Assembly (NCBI RefSeq): GCF_000421605.1
Contig: NZ_ATXI01000015.1
Coordinates: 1 to 41,396, forward strand
DNA: 41,396 bases
Origin: Thermodesulfobacterium thermophilum DSM 1276
GTDB taxonomy: Bacteria; Desulfobacterota; Thermodesulfobacteria; Thermodesulfobacteriales; Thermodesulfobacteriaceae
Direction: 5' to 3'
In this document: piece after piece, positions 23,762-41,396 of the stretch
Numbering within the stretch: position 1 is the first letter of the stretch
Layout: every line of letters starts with the position of its first letter
Program-made: the position numbers and the translations under genes
Notes under the pieces: generated by a model
What the model saw: the letters and a program-made list of their open reading frames with translations, nothing else
Databases searched by the model: none
Told to the model about the DNA's origin: nothing

Positions 23762-23797
23762 ATTCATTCTGTTTCTGAAAATTTTCGCTTCTATACC

Positions 23798-23824: not shown

Positions 23825-23837
23825 AATTATTTTTATA
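23819..23837. repeat. Perfect 19-bp palindrome over the putative -10 box
   Basis: TATAAAAAT, a central T, then ATTTTTATA: nine perfectly paired positions on each side. It covers the proposed -10 hexamer, which is where a repressor site would act. AT-only palindromes are easy to form by chance in this context. Confidence 0.4.
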
Positions 23838-23857
23838 AAACATACAAATAATTTTTT

Positions 23858-23885
23858 GTTAATATTAGCTATTATCGATATTAAC
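23858..23885. repeat. Inverted repeat GTTAATAT-N12-ATATTAAC
   Basis: Perfect 8-bp arms at 23858-23865 and 23878-23885 with a 12-base spacer, ending 27 bases before the cas6 start codon. The geometry fits a dimeric regulator binding site or a weak 5' UTR hairpin. No T run follows it, so it is not a terminator. Confidence 0.45.
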
Positions 23886-23912
23886 TTTAGTTTAGAGAAA
23901 AAAGGGACTACT

Positions 23913-24704: not shown

Positions 24705-24974
24705 ATGGATAAAAAAGAAAAAAATCTTAATAAACTAAAGCCTCTCTTCTGGGAGCATGAATGGAATTCTGTAAAGAAAAACTTAAACTCTCCTTTTGTA
24801 ATAGCAAGAGTTCTTGAAATGGGAAATCCCGAGCAGTTTAAAATTTTAGTTTCAGTAGTAGGTGATGACAAGATTATAAAATTTTTACAAGAAAGTGGTG
24901 ACAGATTACTTTCCAGAAAGTCATTGAATTTTTGGAGAATTTACTATGAGAAAAAGGCTAAAAAAAGAGCATAG
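24705..24974 (+). CDS. DUF6922-type small protein, probable antitoxin of an AbiEii-like pair
   Basis: 89 residues. LKPLFWEHEW near the start, FVIARVLEMGNPEQFKILV in the middle and the RLLSRKSLNFWRIYY end match the pattern I associate with DUF6922 proteins, which usually sit directly before AbiEii/AbiGii-type nucleotidyltransferase toxins. That is also the arrangement here, although the toxin gene is truncated. It starts on the base after the cas6 stop codon and overlaps the next gene by 29 bases. The biochemical role is unknown; a tie to CRISPR function is not shown. Confidence 0.65.
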   Translation: MDKKEKNLNKLKPLFWEHEWNSVKKNLNSPFVIARVLEMGNPEQFKILVSVVGDDKIIKFLQESGDRLLSRKSLNFWRIYYEKKAKKRA

Positions 24975-25335
24975 AAATTCTGTCCTTTCCCTCTTTTATT
25001 ATTCCTATGAGTTATTAAAGGAAAGACAGAAACTTGATATGATTGAACTTGCAAGTCTTGAGGATATCCTTGCAATGAAAACATCTGCTATCCTTCAGAG
25101 AGGAAGCAAGAAAGATTTTGTTGATGTATATTTTATTTTAAAAGAACTAAAAATAAACTGTGAACAGTTAATAAGAATTTTTCAGCAGAAATACGGAAAC
25201 TTTAATCCTTTAATAATAAAAAAGGTTCTTACATATTTTGAAGACGCTGATAAAGAGGGAGAGTTGAAAATGATAAAAAAGATATCCTGGGATAAAATAA
25301 AGAAGTATTTTATAAAGGAGTTTGTAGAGGTATAG
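24946..25335 (+). pseudogene. Truncated AbiEii/AbiGii-type nucleotidyltransferase toxin, C-terminal part only
   Basis: 129 residues with ELASLEDILAMKTSAILQRG then SKKDFVDVYFILKEL, the helical C-terminal half of AbiEii-family toxins, and VLTYFEDAD plus KKISWDKIKKYF at the end. The N-terminal catalytic half expected in this family (a GG(T/S) motif followed by an HR-S-D-DF-type metal-binding motif) is missing. The first 11 residues, MRKRLKKEHRN, lie within or just after the overlap with the antitoxin gene and look like a deletion joint. Without the active site, toxin activity is not expected. The frame is open to its stop, so a short protein could still be made and might bind its partner. Confidence 0.65.
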
Positions 25336-25338
25336 GAT

Positions 25339-26463
25339 ATGTCAATAGGAAGTAGAATGAACTGGTGGCTGGATTTAGGAATGGTTTATTGTTATGAATT
25401 GAACCAAAGTGGCAATTTATCTGATCCTGAAATCCCAACTCGGTTGTTTAAAGTAGCATCTAATATAGTTGATAGGATAGGTGAAAAGAGAAATCCATAT
25501 CTTTCAATTATAAATACGACTCTTTTAAACAATTATATTGCAAATCCCAAAAATAAATCCAAAAGGCAAAGCGAAGAGGATATTAAAAGTCTCTTTAGTA
25601 CAAAACCAGAACCTGCAGAGATTAATTGTAGTTTTTGTGGTCAAATGACAACAAAAAATAAAGACAGTATTGCCGGGCGTAAATGGATTGTCTCAGGTGG
25701 CTGGGAGGGTTCACCTCTTTATGCTGGCGGAGGTTATATTGCACCAAGAATATGTTTAAATTGTAGAAGGTTATCTTTATTGGCTGCATTTAAGGCATAT
25801 GAATTATTTGTAAAAGAAAAATTGCCATTCATCATCTATAATCCTGATATTCAGTTATATAAGAAGCTTCTGGATAATTTACTTCTCAGAAAAGATTTAA
25901 ATCTGAATTTTGAAAGATCTTCATCAATTTTTCTTTCTCTTGGAAGTTTGCTGGTTTATCCTAATTTTGACAGGCGAGGAAATATAGAGAGTTTTGATTT
26001 ACGGCCTCTCTTGCCTAAGGCTTCTTTAATGTTAATGAATCTGTCAGGTTTATTGAGAACAAAAGGTAAAGAACAATATATTTTAGAGATTGTTGAAAAG
26101 TATCGGGATAAAGCAGGAGCAAAATTAGTATCAGATTTTCTTATGAAGCAGTCTAAATTATCTTCAGATGAGGTTGTTATAGCATTTTATGCCTTTGTTA
26201 AAGCTTATAAAGGAGGTATTGGTATGACAAAAGAGTTTTTTGATCTCGGCAAAAAACTTGGAAATGAATTAGGTGATAAGGCTTATTCTTCAGCATTAAA
26301 ACTATATAAATCTCTCAAGGATCCTACACAACTTCAAAAGCAAGTAATAGGAATATATATTTATCTAAAACAGCCGATCCCACCTGAACTTACAAAAATA
26401 ACTGAGAACGATGAATATGCACTTGCATTTATTATGGGTATAATGAACACAATTAAAGGATAA
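25339..26463 (+). CDS. cas8b: Type I-B Cascade large subunit Cas8b1/Cst1 (CXXC-CXXC family)
   Basis: Large subunit of the DNA-targeting complex, expected to recognise the PAM. Two zinc-binding pairs are seen: C97/C100 (CSFC) and C139/C142 (CLNC), separated by a Gly-rich stretch, the layout of the Cst1 (CXXC_CXXC) group of the Tneap-type I-B systems. The N-terminal NWWLDLGMVYCYELN fits the group. Length is 374 residues, short for a Cas8. It lies 3 bases after the toxin fragment and 12 before cas7. Assignment relies on both motif and gene order. Confidence 0.8.
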   Translation: MSIGSRMNWWLDLGMVYCYELNQSGNLSDPEIPTRLFKVASNIVDRIGEKRNPYLSIINTTLLNNYIANPKNKSKRQSEEDIKSLFSTKPEPAEINCSFCGQMTTKNKDSIAGRKWIVSGGWEGSPLYAGGGYIAPRICLNCRRLSLLAAFKAYELFVKEKLPFIIYNPDIQLYKKLLDNLLLRKDLNLNFERSSSIFLSLGSLLVYPNFDRRGNIESFDLRPLLPKASLMLMNLSGLLRTKGKEQYILEIVEKYRDKAGAKLVSDFLMKQSKLSSDEVVIAFYAFVKAYKGGIGMTKEFFDLGKKLGNELGDKAYSSALKLYKSLKDPTQLQKQVIGIYIYLKQPIPPELTKITENDEYALAFIMGIMNTIKG

Positions 26464-26475
26464 GGAGGCTTAAAC

Positions 26476-27474
26476 ATGAAAGGAGTAACATTAACAATGG
26501 TTGTTAAATTTACAGGAACTCCTTCAATGGGAGAAGGGCTTGGTGGTAATATTAATCCTATGAAAGTATTGACAACAGATATAGGCGACTTTCCCTATCT
26601 CTCACCCAATGCAATATTAAAACAGCCCTTGATGGAGTATTTTGTAAAAGAAAAGAAATGGCAGTTTGAATTTCGTAAAAATATAAATATAGCTCCTAAG
26701 AAAAAAGCCACGGATAAACCTCCGCTTCAAATAACAAGCTTTGCAGATGAAGATCCATTTGCTGATATATTTGGATATTTATTTACAAGAAAAAAAACTG
26801 GAGGAGGTAAAAAAGAAAAGAGTGAAGAAGAAAGTGTTGGATCGGAAGAAGCACCAGAGGAAACACGAAAAAGGAAATCTCCTCTTGGCGTCTCTTATGC
26901 TATAGGCTTGATGGGCTTTAAAAATTGTCTTGATTATAGAACCAATCTCGGACTGGTCGAATTGTCAGGCTCAAAAGGAGAAGGACAGATGATTTTCCAG
27001 AGAGAAATAGACATGAACTATTTTGTTTATACGCTTAATCTTGATTTACAGCGTATTGGTAAAGAGGAAAATAAAGACAAGAATAACGAGGTTAACACAG
27101 ATGAGAAGTTAAATAGGGTTAAGGCAATTTTAGAAGCGATACCCTATATTGCTATCCATAGAAATGGCGCTTTAGTGGGTACTCTAAGACCTCATCTTGT
27201 TGTGGGTGGTGTTTTTGAAAAGAAGTTTCCATATTTTATTGACTCAATTGTATGGGATAAAAATAAGAATGCGGTCAAAGCTAAGGCTATTAATGACATT
27301 ATTGATGAATATGAACTTAAATCAGACGATAATAATTTATTAGTCTTTGGTATCCATGAGGGCTTTCCATTGGATGGGCAAGTGAATATTAAAACTATGT
27401 TACCCAAGAAGGCAATAGATAAAGTTGTAGATTTTATAGAGAAAAATAAGGAAAAAATATGGAAAACAACATAA
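26476..27474 (+). CDS. cas7: Type I-B Cascade backbone Cas7 (Cst2/DevR family)
   Basis: RAMP-fold subunit that polymerises along the crRNA spacer. The N-terminal LTMVVKFTGTPSMGEGLGGN is followed by the DevR/Cst2-type segment KSPLGVSYAIGLMGFKN, and LVGTLRPHLVVGGVFEKKFPYF lies in the C-terminal half. Length is 332 residues. Between about residues 112 and 136 it has a highly charged Gly/Lys/Glu insert (GGGKKEKSEEESVGSEEAPE) that looks disordered. AAGGAGG precedes the ATG. Its last 16 bases overlap cas5. Confidence 0.85.
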   Translation: MKGVTLTMVVKFTGTPSMGEGLGGNINPMKVLTTDIGDFPYLSPNAILKQPLMEYFVKEKKWQFEFRKNINIAPKKKATDKPPLQITSFADEDPFADIFGYLFTRKKTGGGKKEKSEEESVGSEEAPEETRKRKSPLGVSYAIGLMGFKNCLDYRTNLGLVELSGSKGEGQMIFQREIDMNYFVYTLNLDLQRIGKEENKDKNNEVNTDEKLNRVKAILEAIPYIAIHRNGALVGTLRPHLVVGGVFEKKFPYFIDSIVWDKNKNAVKAKAINDIIDEYELKSDDNNLLVFGIHEGFPLDGQVNIKTMLPKKAIDKVVDFIEKNKEKIWKTT

Positions 27475-28205
27475 AAATCATCAAAATAAATATCTGGGGA
27501 CAGACAGCGCATTTTAGGATATATGGCAACCAGAATTTTTGCGATTCTTATCCTTTACCGCCACCTTCAACAGTGCTTGGAATATTAAGGGAAGCTCTCG
27601 GTGAAAGACCACCAGAGCCTTTAACCCTTGCAATCAAGGGATGGTTTAAAGGAGTATTCTTTGACTACCAGACCTTTCTACATGGTGCAATTGAGCTGGA
27701 TAGTAAAAAGGGCTGGTGGGTGAGGAGAAAAATTAATCGGTATTCGGACGCAAAAAAAGGCGATGATGTACAGCTAAACCCTTTATATGTTAAGATTTTA
27801 TTCAAACCACAATATACTATATATCTTTTTACACCTGAGCACCATAATTATTACCTATCAAAACTCAAGGATCCTCAAGGCTTTATTTCTCTCGGTAGAA
27901 GTGAAGATATAGCAATGTTTAAAACTGTCTCTGTTAGTGCTGAAAAGAAAAAGGCTGAAAAAAAGGATAAGATAAAAATTGAAAATTCCTATCTACCAAG
28001 AGAGTTATATGGCTCGACACCTTTGTTTTTACCAGTTTCTCATTTGAAAGATAGGAACCTGAAGATGGAAAAGATTTATTATATTCAGCAATCTGTGTCT
28101 TATTATGAAGGCGAATATTGGAAAACTTCTGATGGCGATTGTTTTTTATGGCTATTAGAATACAAAGATACGATAAACGGGAATTTGCCAATATTATTGG
28201 GGTAG
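27459..28205 (+). CDS. cas5: Type I-B Cascade subunit Cas5
   Basis: RAMP protein that caps the 5' handle of crRNA in the Cascade. IKINIWGQTAHFRIYGNQNF is followed by SYPLPPPSTVLGILREALGE, the classic Cas5 N-terminal pattern with the PP-S-xxG-(I/L)-R element. Length is 248 residues, typical. The start overlaps the cas7 end, which suggests coupled translation and keeps subunit levels linked. Confidence 0.9.
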   Translation: MENNIKIIKINIWGQTAHFRIYGNQNFCDSYPLPPPSTVLGILREALGERPPEPLTLAIKGWFKGVFFDYQTFLHGAIELDSKKGWWVRRKINRYSDAKKGDDVQLNPLYVKILFKPQYTIYLFTPEHHNYYLSKLKDPQGFISLGRSEDIAMFKTVSVSAEKKKAEKKDKIKIENSYLPRELYGSTPLFLPVSHLKDRNLKMEKIYYIQQSVSYYEGEYWKTSDGDCFLWLLEYKDTINGNLPILLG

Positions 28206-28209: not shown

Positions 28210-30438
28210 ATGCAAAGAATTTTAGCTAAAAGCAATCCTGAAAAAGAGTTGTACGAACATACACTTGAAGTGATTCAGTGTGCTGAAAGAGAGATTTACA
28301 ATTTACGATTACTTGGATTGAATATTGACAATACTATGGAAAAGGCTATTAAGATTTGTTGTTTTGCACATGATTTGGGTAAGGTTTCAAGAGCCTTTCA
28401 GGACTCCTTATCGGGAAGTAGAAAATATATCCCTCATAATCTCTTATCGGTAGCTTTTCTTAAAACCATCTTTGACCAAATAAGCGATATTCCGGATCAA
28501 TTAAAAAATAAGATAATCTATGCAGTAGGTTTTCACCACAAAAATTTTTTAGAGCTTAGTGATTTCATTAATGATTCAAAAAGAGCAGGGACCGACGGGC
28601 TTGAAGATGAACTCATTGATATAGAGACAAATAGGCTCCATCTGCTTAAGCCTATGCAGGAATTATTCAAAGAATATTTCAATGCTGATATTAAATTTAG
28701 CATAGATTACAGTATTATCGATAAACTAAAAGACATAATTTTTGATTTAAATCCATTTGATAAAGAAATTGTACACCTTAAAGGGATTTTACATAGGGCA
28801 GATCATATAGCATCTGCTGGAATAAATGAAGAATCAAAGATATATCTAAACTCTGAAGCATACAAGACTCTTAAACTTAAAATTACTCCTAAAAAATTTC
28901 AGGAAGAAATTGTTAATAAAGGAGAATCTCTTCTTCTTATTGCTCCTACTGGAAGTGGCAAGACCGAGGCTGCTTTATGTTGGGCAGGAAACAGAAAAGG
29001 AAAGATTATTTTTACCCTGCCTACAAGAGCCTCTGTTAATGCCGCATTTAGGAAGTTACAAAAATATTATGGTGATGATGTCGGCATACTTCATGGTGAA
29101 GCGGGCAGATTTATTTATTCAACTTTAAGGAGGGAATATGATGAAACAGAAGCATTAGAGGAAAGCATTTATGAAGTAAATCTCTGTAAAAATTTATTAA
29201 AGCCAATTGTAGTAACAACAATTGATCAGATTTTTTCATTTGCACTTAGAGTGCATCAGTATGAAAAGGTTCTTATGGGACTTTACGGTGCAAATATTGT
29301 TTTAGACGAAATAGATTCATATTCTCCATATACTATTGAAATATTGAAACAGAGCCTTAAAATAGCACGTCAATTTGACATAAACTTTTTAATTATGTCT
29401 GCGACAATCCCGGATATTCTGAAAGAGGAACTTAAAAAAGAAGGAATTGTGTCGGAAGAATATATCCCAGAATGGGAAGAGATAGAACTAAAAAATGAAT
29501 CTAATCATGAAATACAAATTATTAATGATGATATTATTAATTGCTACAAAACCATAAAAGATCTTTCTAATGGTGAACGAGAAAGTATCCTTATTGTTTG
29601 TAATACCATTAAAAAGGCGGTTTACGTTTATGAAAAGTTAAAAGATCTGTCACCCAAACTTTATCATTCATTGTTTACTTTTGATGACAGGGAAATTAAA
29701 GAAGCAGAAATAGCTCAAGCTGACCATAACGGCAGAAGTACAGGTATATGGATTACAACTCAAGTAGTAGAGGTTTCTCTTGATTTAGATTTTGATGTAT
29801 TGATAACAGAAGCTGCACCTGTGAATGCTTTAATACAAAGAATGGGTAGATGTTATCGTAAGCGTAAAGGTGTAGGGAAAGTCTTTATCTATTCAAAATC
29901 TATAAATGATAACAGTAACAGAGAATTTTATCCGTATGGAGAGCTTGCAATTAAAGAGAGTTTAAAGGCATTTGAAGGGAACAATGGTGTTTTAACTTGG
30001 CAAGAAAAGTTGAAGATTTTAAACAATTACTTTAAGAAATATTGGCAAAGTAAAAAAATTATTGATGAGAAGACGAGAGCAAAGAATATTGTTGGAGCTT
30101 TTCTAAGTTCTGACCTCACAATGCTTGAAACAGTTAGTAACAACGAGGTAAGCAGATTTTTAAGGGATTCTGGCGTTTTATTCAATGTAATTCCTGTATC
30201 AAAATTAGAAGACTCAGAAATAGAGAAGCTTAATGGGAACTATAAATGGAGAGACAGGGATGAAAAGTTGACCTTTTTGTATCAGATAAGAGGTAAAATA
30301 ATTTCTGTTCCAATATATAGTTTACTAAAATTCAGGTCGTTTTTTGAGGAGACAAGATACGGTATGTTTCTGGCTCATTTAGACTACAATAGCGAGACAG
30401 GACTTAATCTTAAAACTTTACCTTCAAATTTTGGATAA
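28210..30438 (+). CDS. cas3: CRISPR helicase-nuclease Cas3 with N-terminal HD domain
   Basis: Effector that unwinds and degrades target DNA after Cascade binding. The N-terminal HD nuclease has H54-D55 (FAHDLGKVSRAF) with further His/Asp in GFHHKNF and LHRADHIASAG. Walker A APTGSGKT is at 245-252, motif II reads DEID (366-369), motif III MSATIP, and motif VI QRMGRCYRKR. Length is 742 residues. Motif II ends in Asp where Cas3 proteins usually have DEVH/DExH, but all other motifs are intact, so activity is expected. It lies 4 bases after cas5 and 3 before the ERCC4 gene. Confidence 0.93.
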   Translation: MQRILAKSNPEKELYEHTLEVIQCAEREIYNLRLLGLNIDNTMEKAIKICCFAHDLGKVSRAFQDSLSGSRKYIPHNLLSVAFLKTIFDQISDIPDQLKNKIIYAVGFHHKNFLELSDFINDSKRAGTDGLEDELIDIETNRLHLLKPMQELFKEYFNADIKFSIDYSIIDKLKDIIFDLNPFDKEIVHLKGILHRADHIASAGINEESKIYLNSEAYKTLKLKITPKKFQEEIVNKGESLLLIAPTGSGKTEAALCWAGNRKGKIIFTLPTRASVNAAFRKLQKYYGDDVGILHGEAGRFIYSTLRREYDETEALEESIYEVNLCKNLLKPIVVTTIDQIFSFALRVHQYEKVLMGLYGANIVLDEIDSYSPYTIEILKQSLKIARQFDINFLIMSATIPDILKEELKKEGIVSEEYIPEWEEIELKNESNHEIQIINDDIINCYKTIKDLSNGERESILIVCNTIKKAVYVYEKLKDLSPKLYHSLFTFDDREIKEAEIAQADHNGRSTGIWITTQVVEVSLDLDFDVLITEAAPVNALIQRMGRCYRKRKGVGKVFIYSKSINDNSNREFYPYGELAIKESLKAFEGNNGVLTWQEKLKILNNYFKKYWQSKKIIDEKTRAKNIVGAFLSSDLTMLETVSNNEVSRFLRDSGVLFNVIPVSKLEDSEIEKLNGNYKWRDRDEKLTFLYQIRGKIISVPIYSLLKFRSFFEETRYGMFLAHLDYNSETGLNLKTLPSNFG

Positions 30439-30441: not shown

Positions 30442-31521
30442 ATGTCTACCTTCTTCATCCTTGAATCAGTTAACAATCTAAAATTTCCATATCGCCTGAC
30501 TATCAGGCAGGGTGAAAAGGTGCTTCTTGCTCTAAGGGTTCAGGATAGATGGCCAGGGCAAAAGGGGAATATCTTTTGTATAAGAGAGGACAACAAAGAG
30601 CTTGACCCACCTGTTGAGGAAATTGAAAGAGTCCCTGTTGTCTCATTAAAGCGTTATGGAAAAAGATTAGCTATTGTTCTTGATAGACCTATAAATAAAC
30701 GTTGCGATTTTCTTTTTTTAAAAAAGAAGTATAAAACCAAAGAAGGTGAATACGAACAGATATTCTGGAGGACTCAAAGGGCTCTTACTGAAAGGAGACC
30801 AAGGGTTAAGCTCAGTACTTACCACAAAGGCAAACTAAATTTGATAGTGGATGCAAATGAAAGATATCCCTGGAAATTTCCTGATTCTGAAATAAAGAAA
30901 GACAAACTACCTGTAGGTGATTATGCATTGATTAACGAAACAGGCATAGTTGCAGTGGTAGAGAGAAAGACTTTTGACAATCTTCTTGCTGAATTGGGCA
31001 GAATGTCTGCTTTTCATCAGCAACTTGGAGAGCTTGAAGCATACAGGTATGCAGCAGTAGTAATAGAGGCAAATTACTCTGATTTCCTTAATCCTAAAAA
31101 GATTAAATTTTATACTCCAGCTTTTGCCGCCAAGGCTATTGCTGAGCTTTATGCGATGCATCCAAATCTCGCCATAGTATTTGCAGGTAATCGTAAACTT
31201 GCAAATGAATGGGCTTATAGATTTTTTTGTGCTATAAATGCTCATGAAAATGATACCCCACATGCAAAAGTCTCTGAAGTGATTGAAGAATACAGAGCCT
31301 CTCAGGAAACCAGGGGAGGGTTATATTTCGAATTAAGAAAGAGCATCATTGAAGGATTTCAAGAAGAGTTTACACTTTCAGAAATAAAAGAAAAATTTCC
31401 ACATGCATCTGTTTCAACCATAAGAAAACTGCTTAATGATTTAAATAAAGAGGGTGTTATTACAAAGTACACCAAAGGCAGGAAAAGCTATTGGAAAAAA
31501 ATAAATAAAGCTGATGAATGA
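30442..31521 (+). CDS. ERCC4 (XPF/MUS81-type) nuclease with N-terminal unknown domain and C-terminal winged helix
   Basis: 359-residue protein not among the core Cas families. Residues about 134-265 form an ERCC4 nuclease domain: VDANER at 136-141, GD at 159-160 and ERK at 174-176. The acidic residue that should follow in ERKxxxD is N180 here, with D179 one place earlier. Residues 1-130 are an unrecognised, mostly beta-strand-like domain. Residues about 305-355 look like a winged helix (FTLSEIKEKF ... SVSTIRKLLNDLNKEGVI). ERCC4 enzymes of the XPF/MUS81 type cut branched DNA such as flaps. No helicase or HhH domain is fused. The gene sits 3 bases after cas3 and overlaps cas4 by 8 bases, so it is co-translated with the operon. 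A role in spacer acquisition or target DNA processing is inference. Confidence 0.85.
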   Translation: MSTFFILESVNNLKFPYRLTIRQGEKVLLALRVQDRWPGQKGNIFCIREDNKELDPPVEEIERVPVVSLKRYGKRLAIVLDRPINKRCDFLFLKKKYKTKEGEYEQIFWRTQRALTERRPRVKLSTYHKGKLNLIVDANERYPWKFPDSEIKKDKLPVGDYALINETGIVAVVERKTFDNLLAELGRMSAFHQQLGELEAYRYAAVVIEANYSDFLNPKKIKFYTPAFAAKAIAELYAMHPNLAIVFAGNRKLANEWAYRFFCAINAHENDTPHAKVSEVIEEYRASQETRGGLYFELRKSIIEGFQEEFTLSEIKEKFPHASVSTIRKLLNDLNKEGVITKYTKGRKSYWKKINKADE

Positions 31522-32038
31522 ATTAAAAGAAGATAGCTTTGACTTTCAAACACTTAAAACCAATGGTATCAAAGTAAACTATCTCTATGTTTGCGAGCGC
31601 AAGCTCTGGCTTTTTGACAGGGGAATCCAGATGGAGTCAAAATCTGACAGAGTTCTTATGGGGAAACTTCTTGGAGAGTATTCATACCCAAGAGATGAAA
31701 AAAAGGAAATACTTATTGACAACCTGATAAACATAGACATCGTTGGAGACAGTAACATAAGAGAAGTTAAATACAGCAACCGTCTTGCCCATGCTGATAG
31801 AATTCAGATACTTTATTATCTATACTATTTAAAACAACTCGGCATCGAAAAGCGAGGTATTATTAACTATCCTAAAATGAGGAAAAAGGAAGAAGTTGTT
31901 CTCACAACGGAAGCAGAATTAGAAGTTGAACAGGCTTTAATCAAAGTTCATGAAATAACTAAAAAAGATAAACCGCCAGCACTTCAGAAAAAACCATATT
32001 GCCCTAAATGTGCATATTATGAATTTTGCTGGGGGTAA
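31514..32038 (+). CDS. cas4: CRISPR adaptation exonuclease Cas4
   Basis: RecB-like Fe-S exonuclease that trims prespacers and helps choose the PAM end. Four cysteines for the cluster are present: C27 (YVCERKLWL), C163, C166 and C172 (CPKCAYYEFC). The RecB motif residues are D in NIDIVGD, E and K in REVKYS and Q/Y in QILYYLYYL. Length is 174 residues. It overlaps the ERCC4 gene by 8 bases. Its usual neighbours cas1 and cas2 are displaced 7.6 kb downstream by the cmr module. Confidence 0.92.
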   Translation: MNELKEDSFDFQTLKTNGIKVNYLYVCERKLWLFDRGIQMESKSDRVLMGKLLGEYSYPRDEKKEILIDNLINIDIVGDSNIREVKYSNRLAHADRIQILYYLYYLKQLGIEKRGIINYPKMRKKEEVVLTTEAELEVEQALIKVHEITKKDKPPALQKKPYCPKCAYYEFCWG

Positions 32039-32059
32039 AACCTATGTAGGAGGCTTTTT

Positions 32060-33265
32060 ATGAAGACTGTAACTTTAAAAATCAAAACCATTACTCCAAC
32101 ATTCATGGGTGGTGGTGACGGAAAGTTTGACGAGATAAGGACATCTGAGATTAAAGGTATGTTGAGATGGTGGTTCAGAGCACTGGCTGGTAGTTTTGTA
32201 GGAAATGACTATAAAGAATTAAAAAAATACGAAGGGAGATTTTTTGGTATAGCCGATGCTAAAAAAAGCAGTCAAAAAAGTAAATTTAAATTACTAATAA
32301 CTAACAGTAAGCTGAATTTTATAAATAGAAATACATCTGGCATTCCCCTAAATGGATATACCTATCTTGGCATTGGCAATGTCATTTTCAAATGGCAAAA
32401 AGAAAGTAGAAATTTTATTCCAAATCCGAATAAATCAGGCATACAGGGCAATGTATTAATAGATGCTGGTTCTACTTTTGATTTAGAGTTTTTCTTTTAT
32501 CCAGGCACCACCAAAGAAGAAATAAATCTCATCACAGGCTCTTTCTATCTTGCAACAGCACTTGGAGGATTTGGCTTGAGGGCAAGAAAGTGTTTTGGTA
32601 GCTGGCAGATTATAAAGAATGAAGGCTTGGATTTAGTATTTAATCCAACGGACTATACTAAAGAGGGTATAGAAAAGAATATAGGACACTTAAAAGGTAT
32701 TCTTAATAAAGAATTTAGCAATCCAACTCCTGCCACTGAATATCCTGCTATTGATGATTCACAATTTATTTTTGAAGTGATACAAACCAATGAAACAGAC
32801 TATAAAGCTCTCTTAGATAATTTTGGGAAACATTATCGTGGCTTCAGGGTTTGTGCAGAAAAGCCTAAACCCGGAGTTCCAGGAACAGGGATTCATACAA
32901 CGGATTTTGATTATTTAATCAATGCAAATAAGCCAAAAAACTGTGATGGGCTTCAAAATTTTAGAAATTACAAAGTAAGGAATGCCCTCTTTGGACTTAA
33001 TATCGTATATCCCAATAAGAAAATTCTTAGGCTTGAAAGACCTAAAGACAACAATGAAAAAGAAATTTTAAGGCGAGCTTCTCCGATATGGTTCAGTGTA
33101 AAGGAGATTTATAATAAATTAAATCTTCATATTGTGCTTTTTAAATCTCGATTTGCTCCTGAAAATAGCAAAGTAAAATTTGATAATAGAGAGGCTCAGG
33201 TTGAGGAATATACATTTCTTGAACAAAGATTTATACCCTACATTAAAAAAAGTTTAGGAGGGTAA
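32060..33265 (+). CDS. cmr1: Type III-B complex subunit Cmr1
   Basis: RAMP subunit at the 3' end of the crRNA in the Cmr complex, contacting target RNA. IKTITPTFMGGGDGK near the start, SEIKGMLRWWFRALAG (about residues 31-46) and ATALGGFGLRARKCFGSW (about 167-184) are the Cmr1 signatures. Length is 401 residues. AGGAGG at 32047-32052 gives a clear start 21 bases after cas4, the largest gap inside the cas block, which fits a cassette junction. Confidence 0.92.
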   Translation: MKTVTLKIKTITPTFMGGGDGKFDEIRTSEIKGMLRWWFRALAGSFVGNDYKELKKYEGRFFGIADAKKSSQKSKFKLLITNSKLNFINRNTSGIPLNGYTYLGIGNVIFKWQKESRNFIPNPNKSGIQGNVLIDAGSTFDLEFFFYPGTTKEEINLITGSFYLATALGGFGLRARKCFGSWQIIKNEGLDLVFNPTDYTKEGIEKNIGHLKGILNKEFSNPTPATEYPAIDDSQFIFEVIQTNETDYKALLDNFGKHYRGFRVCAEKPKPGVPGTGIHTTDFDYLINANKPKNCDGLQNFRNYKVRNALFGLNIVYPNKKILRLERPKDNNEKEILRRASPIWFSVKEIYNKLNLHIVLFKSRFAPENSKVKFDNREAQVEEYTFLEQRFIPYIKKSLGG

Positions 33266-33266
33266 A

Positions 33267-35096
33267 ATGTCTGATTATCTTTGTCTTATAACTATTCCTT
33301 CAATTGGAAAGCTTATTAAATATTCAAGGAGGACAGAGGACCTCTGGGCTGGTAGCATGATTGTGGCAAGTCTTATAAAGAGCTTTATATCAGAGATAAA
33401 AAATAAATATGCTGGAAGAATAGAACTAATATTTCCATCATCTGTTAGTAAAGACCAAAACTCTGATTTTGCTGATATTTCAAATAAAGTTCTTTTTAAA
33501 GTTCTCAAATCAAATGAAAAAGAAATAAAGGCTATAGCAGGAGAGATAGAAGCAATTACTTATAAAGGGCTTAGTGACTTAGTTGATAGTATTTTTCGTA
33601 AATGTGGGATTAATATCGATGATTATAAAGTTCTCGCTTATCATCAGGCAAAAAGTACAATCAAACTATTCTGGGCTGCCCTTCCAGTTGAAGGAGATTA
33701 TAAAGCTACAAGGCAGCATCTTGATGCATTTACTGGATATTTAAAGGATGCATATATAAAAAATGATGAAGTGTTTCAAAGTTATAAGTTGATTAAGCGA
33801 CAGAAACCTGAAAGTTCGTTTGATAATTATCAGAACACAGAAGACTATGAAAAATATTGCAGAGGAGCATATACCTGTACAGTTTGTAAAGAAAATACCA
33901 TTATAGGGGCAACTGAGAAAGATTACAAAGGAAGCGATTTCTGGAGGCAATACTGGAAAAACCACAAAGCAAAATTTAAAGAAGGTGAAAGACTCTGTGG
34001 CTTCTGTCTTATTAAAAGATTCTTAGCAGAATATTTAAAAAAACAGTCCTTTCCTTCTACAAGCGAGATGGCCGCTACAGTGTTTAAGAAACAGGTGATT
34101 GATAATTCAGAGGCACTTGAGGAATTAACTCGTATTTTTGAGCAAGTAATTAATAAATTACCCCGAGGCAATTCTGTGAAGAAGTTGGGAGAGGAATTCA
34201 AAAAGAAATCTAATCAAAAAAATATAGAACTTCTCAAAATTGATGGTGAGTGGTTTATGATTGACACGTGGAAAAATCCAAATACTTATGCTGTATATGG
34301 TATAAATGACGATGAGGCAAAAAGAGTATGTTCACAACTGGAGGATTTTTATAAATCTCATAAAAAACCATCTGAGATGTACGCCATCTTCAAACTTGAT
34401 GGGGACAACATGGGAGCAAAGATTTCAGCTCTTGACAAAAAAGGACATAAAAAATTGAGCGAATTACAATATAGTTTTGTAGAGAAAGCAAAAGAATTTA
34501 TCTACGAATACTATGGTGCTCCAGTTTACATTGGAGGGGATGATATTTTTGCATTTTTGCCTGTTGAGTATGTTCTTGAGTGTGCAAAGTCAATCAGGAG
34601 TGAATATGAAGTCCACATGAAGGAAATTGCAAGCCAGTTATCGGGCTCACATAGTTTTACTATGTCAGGAGCTATATTAGTTGCCCATCATCTCCTACCT
34701 TTACAGTATTTAATCAAAGAACTTTATGAAATTGAAAAAGAAGCAAAATCCCAGAAAGGCAAAGACTCAATTGGCATAAAATTTATCAAACACTCCCTTT
34801 CATCAGATGAGGTAATATTGAAATGGGATAAACTTAGCGAGTTTGAAAGATTAAGGGATATACCAAAATCGTTTATCTATCAATTAAGTAGTGTATCAAA
34901 TGTTTTTGAAGATAAGGATGGTTTAAATGAATTTCATGCACGACAGGCTTTCATAAGGAGCCTATTAAAAAGAAAAGTGAAATCGGACAGAATAGAGGGA
35001 ATTATAGATCAGCTTATTGAGGTTGACAAATTATTAAATTTTAATCGTTTAAGTTCGTTGTTAAGTATACTTCATGTAATCAAAGGAGGAGATTAA
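33267..35096 (+). CDS. cas10: Type III-B Cas10/Cmr2, HD-less, with intact GGDD cyclase motif
   Basis: Large subunit of the Cmr complex. The first palm-like domain begins right at the N-terminus (YLCLITIPSIGKLIKYSRRT then EDLWAGSMI). A zinc site is formed by C204/C207 and C244/C247. The second palm has D378 and D380 (LDGDNMG) and GGDD at 423-426 (VYIGGDDIFAF), the cyclic oligoadenylate synthase centre. At 609 residues it lacks the N-terminal HD nuclease domain found in many Cas10 proteins, so no DNase function is expected. It starts one base after the cmr1 stop codon. The signalling output would suit the Csx1-type gene that follows. Confidence 0.92.
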   Translation: MSDYLCLITIPSIGKLIKYSRRTEDLWAGSMIVASLIKSFISEIKNKYAGRIELIFPSSVSKDQNSDFADISNKVLFKVLKSNEKEIKAIAGEIEAITYKGLSDLVDSIFRKCGINIDDYKVLAYHQAKSTIKLFWAALPVEGDYKATRQHLDAFTGYLKDAYIKNDEVFQSYKLIKRQKPESSFDNYQNTEDYEKYCRGAYTCTVCKENTIIGATEKDYKGSDFWRQYWKNHKAKFKEGERLCGFCLIKRFLAEYLKKQSFPSTSEMAATVFKKQVIDNSEALEELTRIFEQVINKLPRGNSVKKLGEEFKKKSNQKNIELLKIDGEWFMIDTWKNPNTYAVYGINDDEAKRVCSQLEDFYKSHKKPSEMYAIFKLDGDNMGAKISALDKKGHKKLSELQYSFVEKAKEFIYEYYGAPVYIGGDDIFAFLPVEYVLECAKSIRSEYEVHMKEIASQLSGSHSFTMSGAILVAHHLLPLQYLIKELYEIEKEAKSQKGKDSIGIKFIKHSLSSDEVILKWDKLSEFERLRDIPKSFIYQLSSVSNVFEDKDGLNEFHARQAFIRSLLKRKVKSDRIEGIIDQLIEVDKLLNFNRLSSLLSILHVIKGGD

Positions 35097-35098
35097 AG

Positions 35099-36487
35099 AT
35101 GGAAAAATCAATTTTTCTTTATCCTCTTGGGGATCTGAGTAAATATAGAGAAATTACATATATTTATAATTCGGAGGAAAATAAATCTAAACTTCCAATT
35201 CTGTGGCTTTGTGAGAAACTAGAAAATGTTGAAAAAATAGTATTTGTTATTACAAAAAAATTGCAGAAAGATTACTATCTACTCTTTGAAAATCTTTGCG
35301 AATTTTTGCTCAATAAAAGAATTGACGAGGTGTTTGAAAAAGATATAATTAAGCGTTTTAAACGAAAAGAGAATTATGAAGAACATAAAAGTCTTTTTTG
35401 TGAGACTTTAAAATCAAAAACTAACTTCACATATGATTTTTTAGTTATTGATGAAGATAACCTTGTATCTTTTGTAGCTAATTTAAAGACATTTATGGAA
35501 AAACATATTGACAATATTTTTCATATAGACATTACTCATGGATACCGGTTTATACCTATGTTTTTAACAATAGTGGTATCACTTCTTAAAAATGCAGGTT
35601 TACCTATCAAGCTTGGAGAGATATTATATGCCTTCGGTGAAACTTCAGCAAAAAACAGAGTTATAAGTCTTAAGGAATATATGGGTGTTATGGATTGGTC
35701 ACACGGTATTTTCACATTTAAAAACAGTGCAAATATTAGACCTATTGCAGAGTTTTTACAGGGCTTAATGAATGATATTTCCGAAACACTGAATACTCTT
35801 CAATCTTCCCTTGATATGAATCTTTCTCCTAAAATAAAGGAAACCTTAAAAGAATTAAAAATAAAAATTAATGATTGTAAATTTGAGAATGATGTATATT
35901 CACTAGTTTTAGAAGAAATAAGAAAAATGCTTGGTGAATTTAAGAGCAATGGTTCTCAATCTGAATTTGAGTTTTCCCTTGCAAAGTGGCATTTAGAGAA
36001 TAAGAGATACCTTCATGGATACGTCGCATTGATTGAGTCTTTAGTAACTAAACTCTGTGAGGCATATAAACTTAATTCGTCTAAAAGAGAAGACAGGGAA
36101 ATAGCTAAAGCAATTCTCATACCAATAAAAGAAAATCACCAAAATGAAGAATACAAACAATTTATTGATAAGTACATTAAAGGCAATGCTGCTTTGTATG
36201 ATATTCAGAAACCATTAAGTATATTATTCAATGAATTAAGCAATATAAGAAATTGCTTTGCTCACATAAAAGATTTATCTGAAGATGAGGCAAATAAAAT
36301 CTATAAAAATTCAATTAAATTAGCCGAACATTTGACTCCTTCAACTTTAAGTAAGAAGATTAAATGGGAGAAGTTTGAAGCAATATTTGAAGATATAGAA
36401 AGATTGCCGAACCTTTTAGTAGTAGAAAAGCTTAGAGAACTGTCAAATATTTATAAAAACCTAAGCAAGGAGCAAGGCAATGTATAA
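35099..36487 (+). CDS. csx1: Csx1-type CARF-HEPN ribonuclease (TM1812-like)
   Basis: Predicted second-messenger-activated RNase of type III immunity. The N-terminal CARF domain contains DITHGYRFIP (D144, H147, R150), the ligand-site motif of the TM1812/Csx1/Csx2 group. A helical linker follows at about residues 210-300. The C-terminal HEPN domain has R384-N-C-F-A-H389, the RxxxxH catalytic motif. Length is 462 residues. It starts 2 bases after cas10 and overlaps cmr3 by 8 bases, so it lies inside the cmr operon between two structural genes. Activation by cyclic oligoadenylate is known for the family and inferred here; the ring size cannot be told. Confidence 0.88.
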   Translation: MEKSIFLYPLGDLSKYREITYIYNSEENKSKLPILWLCEKLENVEKIVFVITKKLQKDYYLLFENLCEFLLNKRIDEVFEKDIIKRFKRKENYEEHKSLFCETLKSKTNFTYDFLVIDEDNLVSFVANLKTFMEKHIDNIFHIDITHGYRFIPMFLTIVVSLLKNAGLPIKLGEILYAFGETSAKNRVISLKEYMGVMDWSHGIFTFKNSANIRPIAEFLQGLMNDISETLNTLQSSLDMNLSPKIKETLKELKIKINDCKFENDVYSLVLEEIRKMLGEFKSNGSQSEFEFSLAKWHLENKRYLHGYVALIESLVTKLCEAYKLNSSKREDREIAKAILIPIKENHQNEEYKQFIDKYIKGNAALYDIQKPLSILFNELSNIRNCFAHIKDLSEDEANKIYKNSIKLAEHLTPSTLSKKIKWEKFEAIFEDIERLPNLLVVEKLRELSNIYKNLSKEQGNV

Positions 36488-37505
36488 CTATCTTATAAAA
36501 CCAATTGATTTATTCATATTAGGCAATCCTTCCCCCTTTAACAGTGCTGAACAGACCTACAGAGCCTCAGAAAAAATTATAAATCCTATACCTTTTTTCG
36601 GAGCACTTAGAAAAAAGTTTAAGGATGCACAGATTAATTTTATATCCTTGATTAGTAAAAATAAATTTCTTTTTCCCTTACCATTTGATATTGTGAAGAC
36701 TGATACCGATTATAAACAGGGAATATTAAAGAGAACTGCTTCATCTAAGTTTGTATCTGACTCAGAGGATGAATATTGGGTCAGTTTTGGAGAAGAAAAA
36801 ATTCATAGAGAATTTGATAGATATATTGATTCTTACTTTATGGACAAATATTTGCTCAGTGAATTTGAAGTGGAGAATATTAAAACCTCGGAGCCAATCA
36901 AAACAGAAAAAAGAATCGGCATAAAGATAGATAGACAAAAGAGGACTACAGAAGAAGGATTTTTATACTTTGAAGAGTATCTCAGATTTAAAGAGGATTC
37001 TGCTTTTTATATCAAAACTAACTTTAAAGCTTCAGAAAAGACAATCAAACTTGGTGGTGAATCAAGGATGGCTATTTTAGAAGAAATAGAAATAGCTATT
37101 GAAGATGAATTTGTAAATATTGATCGCATTCAAGAACATATTATCAATAATGGTCTTTTTAAGCTAATACTTCTTACACCTACTAACGGTCCATGTGAAA
37201 TATCTGGAGCAAGGATGATTGCTAAGGTAGTAGAAAGACCCTATGTTTACTCAGGCTGGTTAAGAAAGGATAAGGACGCCTTTCCATCAAGGCTATTCAA
37301 CCTCATAAAACCGGGTGCTGTTTTTTATTACAGAATTGAAAACAGTAATAGAGAAGAGTTTGTAAAATCCCTTTTTAATAGATTCTGGCTAAAGCCTGCA
37401 TTTTTTAAACCTGATTTTCCATACTTTGAAAGCTTAGATGGGATAAATCCACTATGTTTAGGATTAACAATAATAGGCACAGTTAAGGAGGTTAGCTATG
37501 AGTAA
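36480..37505 (+). CDS. cmr3: Type III-B complex subunit Cmr3
   Basis: Cas5-like RAMP subunit that binds the crRNA 5' handle and pairs with Cas10. IKPIDLFILGNPSPFNSAEQ then INPIPFFGALRKKF is typical for the Cmr3 N-terminus, and the C-terminal half shows GARMIAKVVERPYVYSGW followed by FNLIKPGAVFYYRIE. Length is 341 residues. It overlaps csx1 and cmr4 by 8 bases each. Confidence 0.9.
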   Translation: MYNYLIKPIDLFILGNPSPFNSAEQTYRASEKIINPIPFFGALRKKFKDAQINFISLISKNKFLFPLPFDIVKTDTDYKQGILKRTASSKFVSDSEDEYWVSFGEEKIHREFDRYIDSYFMDKYLLSEFEVENIKTSEPIKTEKRIGIKIDRQKRTTEEGFLYFEEYLRFKEDSAFYIKTNFKASEKTIKLGGESRMAILEEIEIAIEDEFVNIDRIQEHIINNGLFKLILLTPTNGPCEISGARMIAKVVERPYVYSGWLRKDKDAFPSRLFNLIKPGAVFYYRIENSNREEFVKSLFNRFWLKPAFFKPDFPYFESLDGINPLCLGLTIIGTVKEVSYE

Positions 37506-38325
37506 TTTAGCTGTATTTTACCATTTTTACACATCTCTACACTTTGGTAGCGGCACAACATTAAGTTACATTGATCTTCCAGTAGAAAGGGAATCTCATA
37601 CGAACTATCCTGTAATGCCGTCAACGGGAATTAAAGGTGTATTCAGGGCATGTTATCAGCAAACATACGGAGAAGAAAAAGCTGAAAGCATTTTTGGTAA
37701 AGGAGATGAAGAAGGAAAACTCACATTCGTTGACGGACGAATACTATTCTTCCCTGTAAAATCTGCAAGAGGAGTTTTTGTATGGATTACCTGTCCTATG
37801 GTTTTGCAAAGATTTGAAAGGGATATGAAAATTATAAAATCTGATTTTAAAATTAATTTTCTGGCAAGCCTTAATTTTGATAATGATGAGGTGGCTTATG
37901 TTTCAAGTGATAGAATTACAGTCAATGATTTTTTAATTCTTGAAGAACTGAGTTTAAAAAAAAAGAATAACATTGATTTTAATTGGATTGACCAGCTTAA
38001 GATTGGTATAGATAAATCAAGAATAGCGGTTATTTCTGATAATATGTTTTCATATTTTGTCAAGAATGCAACTGAGATAAATGCAAGAATTAGAATTGAC
38101 CAAGAGAAAGGAACCGTTGAAGAAGGGGCACTATGGTATGAAGAACTCGTGCCAGCGGAATCTGTATTTTATAGCCTTGTAATTGAAAGGAGTAAGGATA
38201 GTTGTAAGGATTTACAGCAATTCATTAAGACTTACAATAATCAGATTTTCCAGTTTGGTGGAAATGAAACCCTTGGCCGTGGTTTTGCAAAAGTAATTCT
38301 ATATGGAGGGGAGAAAAATGGCTAA
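37498..38325 (+). CDS. cmr4: Type III-B backbone and target-RNA nuclease subunit Cmr4
   Basis: Cas7-like subunit that repeats along the crRNA and cuts target RNA at 6-nt steps. LHFGSGTTLSYIDLPVERES contains the Asp (YID, residue 27) that matches the catalytic Asp of characterised Cmr4. MPSTGIKGVFRACYQQTYGE and the C-terminal GGNETLGRGFAKV are further signatures. Length is 275 residues. RNA cleavage is therefore expected to be intact. Confidence 0.92.
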   Translation: MSNLAVFYHFYTSLHFGSGTTLSYIDLPVERESHTNYPVMPSTGIKGVFRACYQQTYGEEKAESIFGKGDEEGKLTFVDGRILFFPVKSARGVFVWITCPMVLQRFERDMKIIKSDFKINFLASLNFDNDEVAYVSSDRITVNDFLILEELSLKKKNNIDFNWIDQLKIGIDKSRIAVISDNMFSYFVKNATEINARIRIDQEKGTVEEGALWYEELVPAESVFYSLVIERSKDSCKDLQQFIKTYNNQIFQFGGNETLGRGFAKVILYGGEKNG

Positions 38326-38752
38326 GACTCTTGAACAAAAAAGGGCAGAATATGCATATAAGATTGTTGAAAGAGTAAAAGATCAAAGCTATGCATCAGA
38401 TTTTTCATCGCTCGTATCAAAGATGCATTCATATATACTAACAAACGGTCTTGGAAACACCCTGGCTTTTCTATTTTCAAAGGGCAAAGAGCACCATCTT
38501 CTTATCGCTGGCATAATGGCTGACTGGATACTGAGAAAGTGCAAAATTGTTTCTACTAACGGTTTTGATAGGTTTAATGATCACTGGATTTTTAATAGTG
38601 ATAAAGTCAAAAGCAAATTAGGTGATATTTTGAATGGCCTTGTTCTGGAACTAGATGTATATCATTACTCTGTGGTTACAAATGAACTACTTTCTCTTTT
38701 CATCTGGCTCAAGCGGTTTTCAGATGGAATTATTGAAAAAGGAGGTAAGTAA
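38318..38752 (+). CDS. cmr5: Type III-B small subunit Cmr5
   Basis: All-helical small subunit that lines the target-RNA channel. AKTLEQKRAEYAYKIVERVK at the start and the two later helices (NTLAFLFSKGKEHHLLIAGI; ELLSLFIWLKRFSDGIIE) match the family. ATG 38318 is chosen over in-frame ATG 38303 because GGAGGGGAG at 38305-38313 lies just before it. Length is 144 residues. It overlaps cmr4 by 8 bases and its stop touches the cmr6 start. Confidence 0.9.
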   Translation: MAKTLEQKRAEYAYKIVERVKDQSYASDFSSLVSKMHSYILTNGLGNTLAFLFSKGKEHHLLIAGIMADWILRKCKIVSTNGFDRFNDHWIFNSDKVKSKLGDILNGLVLELDVYHYSVVTNELLSLFIWLKRFSDGIIEKGGK

Positions 38753-39649
38753 ATGTATTTAGTTCCTAATAATTCAAAGATCTCTAATAATTTTCTACCT
38801 GATAATCCGCTTTTACTAATGAATAAGTTTATAAAAATAATTAATGTGAATGACAATAGTAAACTGGAAATTTTAAAAATTGATAAAGCAAAAACAGAGA
38901 TTTTTAGAAGCTTGAAAAGTGATATTATTTTGAGAAATATGAAAAAGCTTTTTTCTGAAATAAATAAAAAAATGAAGATTATTGCTAAATCTTATTCCTT
39001 ATTCACCTCTTCTCGACTTATTGTGGGTCTTGGCTCAACCTCAGTGCTTGAGACATCAATAAAACTTCACCACATCTATGGAGTGCCATACATACCTTCA
39101 ACTGCTATTAAAGGACTCTTGAGGGCATACAAACTCTGGAAGCTTGCTGACTGGGATATGGAGCTTTTCAGCGCATTTGAGTATGCAATTAAATTAGTTT
39201 ATGAGAAATGTAAAGAGCCAGAAAAGGAGTTTTGCGAAAGACTAAACAATATCCAGAAAAAAGAATTAAAGCCTGAGGCAAATATTTTGTTGGACAAGAC
39301 AGAGATGATTTTTAAAAAGAAGAACGAATTATTTGAAATTTTACAAATCTTCGGCAGTCAGGTAAATAGAGGAAGCCTAATAGTTTTTGATGCCTATCCT
39401 GAGCAGTTGAATGGTTTTGAAATTGACATAATGAACCCCCACTACCCTGACTACTACCAGGATAATCAACCGCCTGCAGATTGGCAGAATCCAAATCCTG
39501 TAAAGTTTCTTGTTTTACCTGCGGGAACCAGATTTAATTTTTACTTTTTAAATCCCTATGAGCAGCTTGAAAGTGATCTGAAAAATGCTTTACAACTACT
39601 TGGAATAGGTGCAAAAACAGCTCTTGGGTATGGAGTTTTTCAATCATGA
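38753..39649 (+). CDS. cmr6: Type III-B complex subunit Cmr6
   Basis: RAMP subunit near the 3' end of the crRNA next to Cmr1. LIVGLGSTSVLETSIKLHHI, then GVPYIPSTAIKGLLRAYKLW (about residues 112-131), FGSQVNRGSLIVFDAYPE, and the C-terminal LLGIGAKTALGYGVF are Cmr6 hallmarks. The first 75 residues are less typical. Length is 298 residues. Its last 4 bases overlap the cas1 start (ATGA). Confidence 0.9.
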   Translation: MYLVPNNSKISNNFLPDNPLLLMNKFIKIINVNDNSKLEILKIDKAKTEIFRSLKSDIILRNMKKLFSEINKKMKIIAKSYSLFTSSRLIVGLGSTSVLETSIKLHHIYGVPYIPSTAIKGLLRAYKLWKLADWDMELFSAFEYAIKLVYEKCKEPEKEFCERLNNIQKKELKPEANILLDKTEMIFKKKNELFEILQIFGSQVNRGSLIVFDAYPEQLNGFEIDIMNPHYPDYYQDNQPPADWQNPNPVKFLVLPAGTRFNFYFLNPYEQLESDLKNALQLLGIGAKTALGYGVFQS

Positions 39650-40623
39650 GAAACTATTATATTTTCTCAAATGGAAGGCTGAGACGGAAGGATAACACCA
39701 TTTACATAGAAAACGAGCAGGGTGACAAAAAAGCCATACCCATTGAAGATGTAGATACCATCCATGTTTTTGGAGAAGTTGATCTAAACACGAAACTTCT
39801 TAATTTTCTCTGCCAGCACGGAAAGACTGTACATTTTTACAACTACTATGGATTTTACTCTGGAAGCCTTATGCCAAGAGACAGAAACGTATCAGGGCAT
39901 CTTTTAGTAAAACAGGTTGAACATTATCTTGACCAAGAACGCAGATTTTATCTTGCTTTTTCCTTTGTAGAGGGTGCAATCTTTCACATGTTAAGAAATC
40001 TAAGAGAATATAAAAATACTGAAGGATTTCAGGAAAAAATCAAAAAAGAGTTAACCAATGCCGTTGAGGCAAAAAACATCAGTGAGCTTATGGGATGTGA
40101 GGGTAGGGCAAGAGATGTTTATTATGAGGCATTCAATACTATCTTAAAATCAGATTTTTCAATGGAAAAAAGAGAGAAAAGACCTCCTACAAATCCCGTT
40201 AATGCTTTAATTTCCTTTGCAAACAGCATGATTTACACAACAGTGTTGAATGAGATATATCATACCCAGCTGAACCCTACAATAAGCTATCTTCATGAGC
40301 CAGGGCACAGGCGATACTCTCTAAGTCTTGATATTGCAGAGATATTTAAACCTCTCATAGCAGACCCAATTATATTTAAATTGATAAACAACAACATGCT
40401 CAGGCTTGATGACTTTGAGGAAGATGTAAATTATTGCTATCTGAATGACAGTGGTAGAAAAAAGTTTATCAAAGAGTTTGACCAGAAGCTTACCACAACG
40501 ATAAAGCACAGAAAAATGAAAAGAAAGGTTTCTTATAGGAGTTTGATTAGGATTGAGTGTTACAAGTTGATTAAACATTTGATAGGAGATGAAGTATATA
40601 AACCTTTTAAGGCTTGGTGGTGA
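39646..40623 (+). CDS. cas1: CRISPR integrase Cas1
   Basis: Metal-dependent integrase that inserts new spacers with Cas2. Catalytic residues are visible: E152 (GCEGRARDVYYEAF), H217 (SYLHEPGH) and D229 (LSLDIAEIFKPLIADP). The type I-B style is shown by the N-terminal YYIFSNGRLRRKDNTIYI and IPIEDVDTIHVFGEVDLN. Length is 325 residues. It is coupled to cmr6 by ATGA and followed 3 bases later by cas2. No reverse transcriptase or Cas6 fusion is present. Confidence 0.96.
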   Translation: MRNYYIFSNGRLRRKDNTIYIENEQGDKKAIPIEDVDTIHVFGEVDLNTKLLNFLCQHGKTVHFYNYYGFYSGSLMPRDRNVSGHLLVKQVEHYLDQERRFYLAFSFVEGAIFHMLRNLREYKNTEGFQEKIKKELTNAVEAKNISELMGCEGRARDVYYEAFNTILKSDFSMEKREKRPPTNPVNALISFANSMIYTTVLNEIYHTQLNPTISYLHEPGHRRYSLSLDIAEIFKPLIADPIIFKLINNNMLRLDDFEEDVNYCYLNDSGRKKFIKEFDQKLTTTIKHRKMKRKVSYRSLIRIECYKLIKHLIGDEVYKPFKAWW

Positions 40624-40626
40624 TAT

Positions 40627-40893
40627 ATGCCGTATTTGATTGTTACCTATGATATAGGAGAAGAAAGGCTAAATAAAGTGAGAAAAATTCTTAAAAAATA
40701 CTTTATGTGGGTTCAGAATTCGGTTTTTGAGGGAGAGATTAGTGAGGGAAAGTTATTAAAGTGCAAGTTAGAGCTGGAAAAGGTAATCGATAAAGAAAAT
40801 GATTCTATATATTTTTACAGTCTTGAGAACAGGTTGAACTACAGAAAAACAGTCCTCGGAATTGAAAAGGATATGACAGGGAATATTTTATGA
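40627..40893 (+). CDS. cas2: CRISPR adaptation protein Cas2
   Basis: Ferredoxin-fold dimer that holds the prespacer between two Cas1 dimers. MPYLIVTYDIGEERLNKVRK carries the conserved Asp (D9) on strand one, and WVQNSVFEGEISEGKL is the second family signature. Length is 88 residues. It is the last cas gene; the leader and array follow on the same strand. Confidence 0.95.
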   Translation: MPYLIVTYDIGEERLNKVRKILKKYFMWVQNSVFEGEISEGKLLKCKLELEKVIDKENDSIYFYSLENRLNYRKTVLGIEKDMTGNIL

Positions 40894-41100
40894 TTTTGCA
40901 TCGAACCTGGTTTTCTGCCAAAATTTGAATAAACTTAATGAATGCTACATAATGAAGATATTTTTTATTAGCTTTTTTAAAATCGATTGAAGGTTTGATG
41001 CAGATAAAATCAAATCTAGGTTGTAGATAAAATTATAGATTGTTTTAAAATTTTTATGTATAAAGCTTTTGCATGTAATTTTATGTTCTTTGACAATTGG
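40894..41100 (+). promoter_or_regulatory. CRISPR leader
   Basis: 207 AT-rich bases without a gene between cas2 and the first repeat, the expected place of the promoter for the array and the Cas1-Cas2 integration signals. TATAAA at 41059-41064 may be a -10 box, but no good -35 lies at the right distance. Short arms AATCTA (41013-41018) and TAGATT (41036-41041) form an inverted repeat. TTGACA at 41090-41095 is right at the leader end. The array orientation, with cas2 and leader upstream, is supported by position only. Confidence 0.7.
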
Positions 41101-41396
41101 GTTTCATCTGAACCATGTGGGATATAAAGTTAAAAAGAAAGTATCTTCAAGTGTTGACCTACTTGGTTTCATCTGAACCATGTGGGATATAAAGCTCTTC
41201 TTCATTTTTAGCAAAATATTGATAAAGCAAGTTTCATCTGAACCATGTGGGATATAAAGTCTGCTGATGCGGTAATAACATTACTAATCGCCTTTCAGTT
41301 TCATCTGAACCATGTGGGATATAAAGAATCATGCAAGGCCACAAAAGCATTTAATCTTGTTGTGTTTCATCTGAACCATGTGGGATATAAAGACTT
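41101..41396 (+). CRISPR. CRISPR array, five repeats visible, continues past the window
   Basis: Five identical 29-base repeats start GTTTCATCTG and end GGGATATAAAG, at 41101-41129, 41166-41194, 41231-41259, 41298-41326 and 41364-41392. Four complete spacers of 36, 36, 38 and 37 bases lie between them and a fifth begins at 41393. There is no decay in any repeat, consistent with the leader-proximal, recently extended end. The last 8 bases, ATATAAAG, would form the crRNA 5' handle if Cas6 cuts at the usual place; this differs from the common ATTGAAAC/G form. Confidence 0.98.

Follow-up and report, generated by a model that had tools for sequence, protein, structure and literature searches.

We analyzed a 41,396-nt stretch of DNA from Thermodesulfobacterium thermophilum DSM 1276 (hereafter the window), in which one operon combines type I-B genes (cas6, a likely cas8, cas7/Cst2, cas5t and an HD-containing cas3) with a III-B cmr cassette, a cas4-cas1-cas2 set and a CRISPR array. 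The gene under study encodes an ERCC4-domain nuclease. Its setting is as follows, with the domains of the product given beneath the gene:

25339..28205, + strand: effector genes cas8 (likely; assigned from position only, with no confident family match), cas7/Cst2 and cas5t, sharing 25-36% identity with their counterparts in sister loci
28210..30438, + strand: cas3 (HD nuclease and helicase), upstream neighbour of the ERCC4 gene and part of the swapped effector module
30442..31521, + strand: ERCC4-domain nuclease gene, ATG start, 359 aa (open reading frame and translation, Pfam PF02732, AF2 model, fold searches)
30442..30795, + strand: N-terminal domain, residues ~1-118, predicted LigD 3'-phosphoesterase (PE) fold without any conserved histidine
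30832..31251, + strand: ERCC4 nuclease domain, residues 131-270 (Pfam, fold, invariant E140, GDY159-161 and ERK174-176)
31315..31509, + strand: C-terminal winged helix, residues 292-356 (VIA Z 9.0 to 3lmm, many wHTH matches)
31514..32038, + strand: cas4
32040..39641, + strand: III-B cmr cassette (cmr1, cas10, csx1, cmr3-6), exactly between cas4 and cas1
39646..40893, + strand: cas1 and cas2, the adaptation module (tblastn match to cas1/cas2 of related loci)
41100..41392, + strand: start of the CRISPR array, repeat GTTTCATCTGAACCATGTGGGATATAAAG, spacers 36-38 nt

The ERCC4 gene lies where the sequence-only reading had placed it, 3 nt after the end of cas3 (30438) and overlapping the start of cas4 (31514) by 8 nt, and it is probably transcribed together with the operon. 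It gave the single ERCC4 match in the genome (1.79 Mb).

The nuclease domain recognized at the outset was borne out by a Pfam match above cut-off, an intact motif and a matching fold. The ERCC4 family (PF02732) gave 36.5 bits over residues 149-261, against a cut-off of 24. Among 37 homologues, E140, G159-D160-Y161 and E174-R175-K176 are invariant, D137 is present in 36, and position 179 of the GDXnERKX3D motif is occupied by D in 22 of them and by E in 13. The AlphaFold model of the whole protein (mean pLDDT 81.7) has three domains, two of which the sequence-only reading did not note. Over residues 131-269 the model can be superposed on 1j24, the Hef nuclease, with a Z of 15.6 at 1.9 Å, and the ERCC4 domain model also matches A. 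pernix XPF (2bhn; Z 15.3). The C-terminal domain has a profile match to the wHTH of 8uqu (E 1e-4) and probably binds duplex DNA. Because residues 292-356 form a winged helix, the tandem helix-hairpin-helix of XPF/MUS81 is absent, and Pfam found no HhH family in the protein. Thus, the proposed kinship to XPF/MUS81 holds for the superfamily fold and motif, whereas the tandem helix-hairpin-helix of the family proper is missing. The protein shares the ERCC4 fold and the GD...ERK motif with the archaeal XPF and Hef nuclease domains, but differs from those enzymes in having neither the tandem helix-hairpin-helix nor a helicase, and in carrying a PE-like domain ahead of the nuclease and a winged helix behind it. 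NCBIfam and PADLOC contain no specific model for it; NCBIfam gave only weak matches, to Hef and archaeal Xpf. The T. hveragerdense copy (L011, 9986-11050) stops early after KGRKSY, with loss of the last winged-helix strand. Four homologues from Cysteiniphilum, a Francisella-like genome and relatives (L042, L043, L046 and L047) have about 110 additional aa in the N-terminal half.

When residues 2-116 were modelled alone, the VIA search returned four listed LigD PE entries, archaeal and Pseudomonas, at Z 11.0, 9.9, 9.0 and 8.7, and the best unrelated fold after them scored Z 3.1. Foldseek with the isolated domain did not place LigD PE among the best matches listed. Genuine LigD PE sequences carry HxxxxxHYDxR; no conserved histidine was present in the domain across 36 homologues, and profile comparison with true LigD PE sequences revealed no sequence similarity. 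Kinship to LigD PE is thus suggested by predicted structure: the domain has the fold of 3p43, 3p4h and 3n9b in common, but differs from those proteins in lacking the catalytic histidines (H...HxD), in showing no profile similarity and in being fused to ERCC4. We infer a PE-like fold that lost, or never had, phosphoesterase chemistry, and that may grip a DNA end or junction.

Comparison of the window with T. hveragerdense (L011) by blastn showed 93% identity over 21868-24985 (lon to DUF6922), a 118-base match at 25235-25352 (89%) and then no homology across cas8-7-5-3. Identity resumed with base 7 of the ERCC4 gene and extended through ERCC4 and cas4 (30448-32039, 94.7%), was absent across the cmr cassette, and returned from 39642 through cas1, cas2 and the array (91.7%). 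The cassette fills precisely the interval from cas4 to cas1 and is missing in T. hveragerdense, indicating insertion or loss of the block as a whole. This pair is a natural experiment in which cas8-7-5-3 were exchanged while the side comprising ERCC4, cas4, cas1, cas2 and the repeat was retained. Across six loci, identities were 71-97% for ERCC4, 71-91% for cas4, 70-94% for cas1 and 75-99% for cas2, as against 25-37% for cas8, cas7 and cas5 and 35-63% for cas3. ERCC4 has stayed together with cas4-cas1-cas2 and the repeat through at least three I-B effector sets; since these genes are conserved while the effectors differ, ERCC4 belongs to the adaptation side in these exchanges.

Among about 55 loci, seven copies including that of the window form a CRISPR group. 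Besides the window, ERCC4 was found beside cas4 in T. hveragerdense, in three Nitrospirota genomes and in one contig binned as Vermiphilus (L004), for which misbinning is possible. The order ERCC4-cas4-cas1-cas2 is present in L093 (the same as L002), L004, L005, L011, L088 and the window, where the cmr cassette follows cas4. In all of these ERCC4 lies downstream of cas3, except in L004, whose contig begins with unassigned short ORFs. In the seventh locus, L003, a 112-aa cas3 remnant is followed by ERCC4 and then by a MNT-HepT pair. Of the six loci having both genes, five show ERCC4 adjoining or overlapping cas4, as in coupled genes, which counts against reading it as mobile cargo.

A Cas1 match at E < 1e-60 was present in 22 of 230 Thermodesulfovibrionia genomes. 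We fetched nine sister loci with Cas1 65-88% identical, none of which carries ERCC4. In L094, L096 and L097 the cas3|cas4 slot is occupied by an AAA_14-DUF4143 ATPase, of a family matching PADLOC candidate-defence models (PDC-S01), in L098 and L099 by a UPF0149/SEC-C gene, and in L095 and L100-L102 it is empty. Slot content, whose variability the sequence-only reading did not bring out, tracks neither effector type nor the Cas4+Cas1 tree, in which the ERCC4-bearing loci are scattered (4 changes). With ERCC4 present in 6 of the 15 loci of this Cas1 group and its homologues mostly outside cas loci, the initial statement that it is not a core Cas protein stands; the protein falls outside the known Cas families. 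The same slot families recur beside free-standing ERCC4 genes, UPF0149 in L019 and L008 and AAA_14-DUF4143 in L010, and are mildly enriched there (11/207 near versus 6/346 far, p 0.02, with seeds drawn only from ERCC4-less CRISPR loci). Toxin-antitoxin genes likewise occur beside free-standing ERCC4 copies, in L006, L008, L009, L017 and L039. These findings place an interchangeable accessory slot at the very junction at which the effector modules of CRISPR loci recombine with the adaptation modules.

Short peptide patterns, scanned against 84,980 species genomes, picked out 50 loci; the nuclease with this architecture occurs in many bacterial phyla. Among the genomes sampled, strong matches (E < 1e-30) came from 7 of 395 Thermodesulfobacteriota and from 6 of 396 Nitrospirota. 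More distant relatives are carried on 23 plasmid records from mycobacteria, rhodococci and other actinomycetes. The mycobacterial and Rhodococcus proteins, annotated as 'ERCC4 domain-containing protein', are about 31% identical to the query along as much as 80% of its length, a stretch that takes in the nuclease and most of the N-terminal domain, and differ from the window protein in being on plasmids and, in two examples, away from cas genes. These two (L144 and L145; Rhodococcus and Mycobacterium) have HigBA/HipA genes, or a recombinase and ParA, in their vicinity. No relative was found in phages and viral contigs scanned by exact short peptides, a scan that distant ones could escape.

About 11 of the roughly 55 loci lie near cas genes, and seven of these are in or beside the cas3|cas4 slot. 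The other four have cas genes within about five genes: cas1-cas2 downstream in L013, cas6 in L015 and L016, and a Cas3g piece in L008. Such proximity is more than we would expect for a random gene and is a second point against mobile cargo. For about 80% of the sampled homologues a cas gene was not detected nearby, a figure that is an estimate because the scan reached three genes out and skipped the longest proteins. The suggestion that the gene is a dedicated CRISPR component, which the sequence-only reading itself would have seen refuted by homologues lying mainly outside cas loci, is thus largely contradicted.

The ratio dN/dS was about 0.07-0.13 between distant loci (pairs with estimable dS) and 0.27 for the close window-L011 pair, indicating that the ERCC4 protein is under purifying selection. 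The seven copies lodged in CRISPR loci cluster together in the best tree, with weak support (72/31); their shared slot and grouping hint at more than repeated random insertion. Only 7 of 359 residues are specific to these copies. Outside the closest pair, ERCC4 identity showed no correlation with Cas4/Cas1 identity, suggesting that ERCC4 was also exchanged on its own. Among loci with a readable array, repeats are near-identical and spacers are about 36 nt long with or without ERCC4 (36.6 versus 36.3 nt, p 0.09, no clear difference, the loci not being independent); apparently, the enzyme is not needed for ordinary spacers.

We consider it most probable, the balance leaning modestly this way, that the ERCC4 protein is a structure-specific nuclease with a free-standing role in maintenance or defence, and that its gene moves horizontally and, in one group of I-B loci, occupies a variable accessory slot where the effector and adaptation modules meet. 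Mobility is suggested by comparison of loci: the patchy spread among genomes, the plasmid relatives, the varying slot content and the scatter in the Cas4+Cas1 tree. The intact motif and fold, the mild enrichment of slot families beside free-standing copies, the retention of ERCC4 through the effector swap and the low dN/dS also speak for this reading. ERCC4 enzymes cut flaps, forks and similar branched structures, and the most likely chemistry of the core would be cleavage near the branch point of a flap, fork or recombination intermediate, while the PE-like domain would hold the DNA end or junction and the winged helix would sit on duplex DNA. The enzyme would act on its own in maintenance or defence, and if it supplied Cas4-Cas1-Cas2 at all, this would be a secondary activity; its gene is optional, interchangeable with other cargo genes, and travels with the adaptation side in effector swaps. 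A stricter form of the cargo idea is that the gene is a pure hitchhiker which at present does nothing for the cell except maintain itself, as do many toxin-antitoxin genes of such islands. The abundance of toxin-antitoxin genes around it, the unrelated genes in the same slot of sister loci and the stop codon that removes the last residues in T. hveragerdense are consistent with this, but purifying selection and the invariant catalytic residues argue against it, and we regard it as unlikely.

The two roles suggested by the sequence-only reading fared differently, the adaptation-side position fitting the production of prespacers better than the resolution of R-loops. As an optional accessory of adaptation, the nuclease would cut branched or flapped DNA, such as Cas3 debris or stalled invader forks, into 3'-tailed fragments for trimming and integration by Cas4-Cas1-Cas2. 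The persistence of ERCC4 with cas4-cas1-cas2 and the repeat through effector swaps, its overlap with cas4 and the end binding that the modelled PE-like domain suggests all point in this direction, and there is a precedent in E. coli, where the host nucleases RecJ and RecBCD produce prespacers (PMC9699676). Against it are the nine sister loci without ERCC4, whose readable arrays have a near-identical repeat and ~36-nt spacers, the uncorrelated ERCC4 and Cas4/Cas1 identities, and the very few residues specific to CRISPR-lodged copies. We hold such a role to be possible, well short of probable. Its fuller version is put forward more tentatively still: in I-B systems, a nuclease specific for branches, gripping DNA ends by its pseudo-phosphoesterase domain, would convert branched DNA of an invader to prespacers for use by Cas4-Cas1-Cas2. 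The ERCC4 protein, a predicted DNA nuclease, resembles Cas4 in that its gene belongs to the adaptation side; it differs from Cas4 and from E. coli RecJ/RecBCD in fold and expected substrate, and its gene is optional. An accessory of interference, resolving the R-loops, flaps or forks that Cascade-Cas3 leaves behind, would suit the position 3 nt downstream of cas3 and the structures that ERCC4 enzymes cut. However, ERCC4 stays while Cascade and Cas3 change, which disfavours the R-loop role, and the same effector types are found with other slot genes or an empty slot; we judge this explanation to be the least likely of all.

The claim that this is an undescribed CRISPR component survives in part: it is not dedicated to CRISPR, and three CRISPR papers (the 2025 classification, the 2023 large-scale clustering and the Cas4 phylogenomics study) make no reference to ERCC4 in their main text. 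The literature search did not find the combination of PE-like, ERCC4 and winged-helix domains, an architecture that is apparently undescribed. If the enzyme has no role in adaptation, the slot is a clear example of CRISPR operons gathering and exchanging cargo. A role in adaptation would instead show a route from branched DNA to spacers, with an XPF-like enzyme in acquisition, which is not described in the papers searched.

Further variation was observed in these operons. Between cas6 and cas8 there is another variable slot (24705-25335 in the window), where the window has a DUF6922 gene and a truncated AbiEii-like gene; in relatives it contains VapBC (L097) or ORF6N-like genes (L096). L102 has two tandem I-B effector sets, one with split cas8 and cas3, ahead of a single cas4-cas1-cas2 set. 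In L100, two extra genes are found between cas4 and cas1 (6057-7860), one of which resembles a WYL-type regulator.
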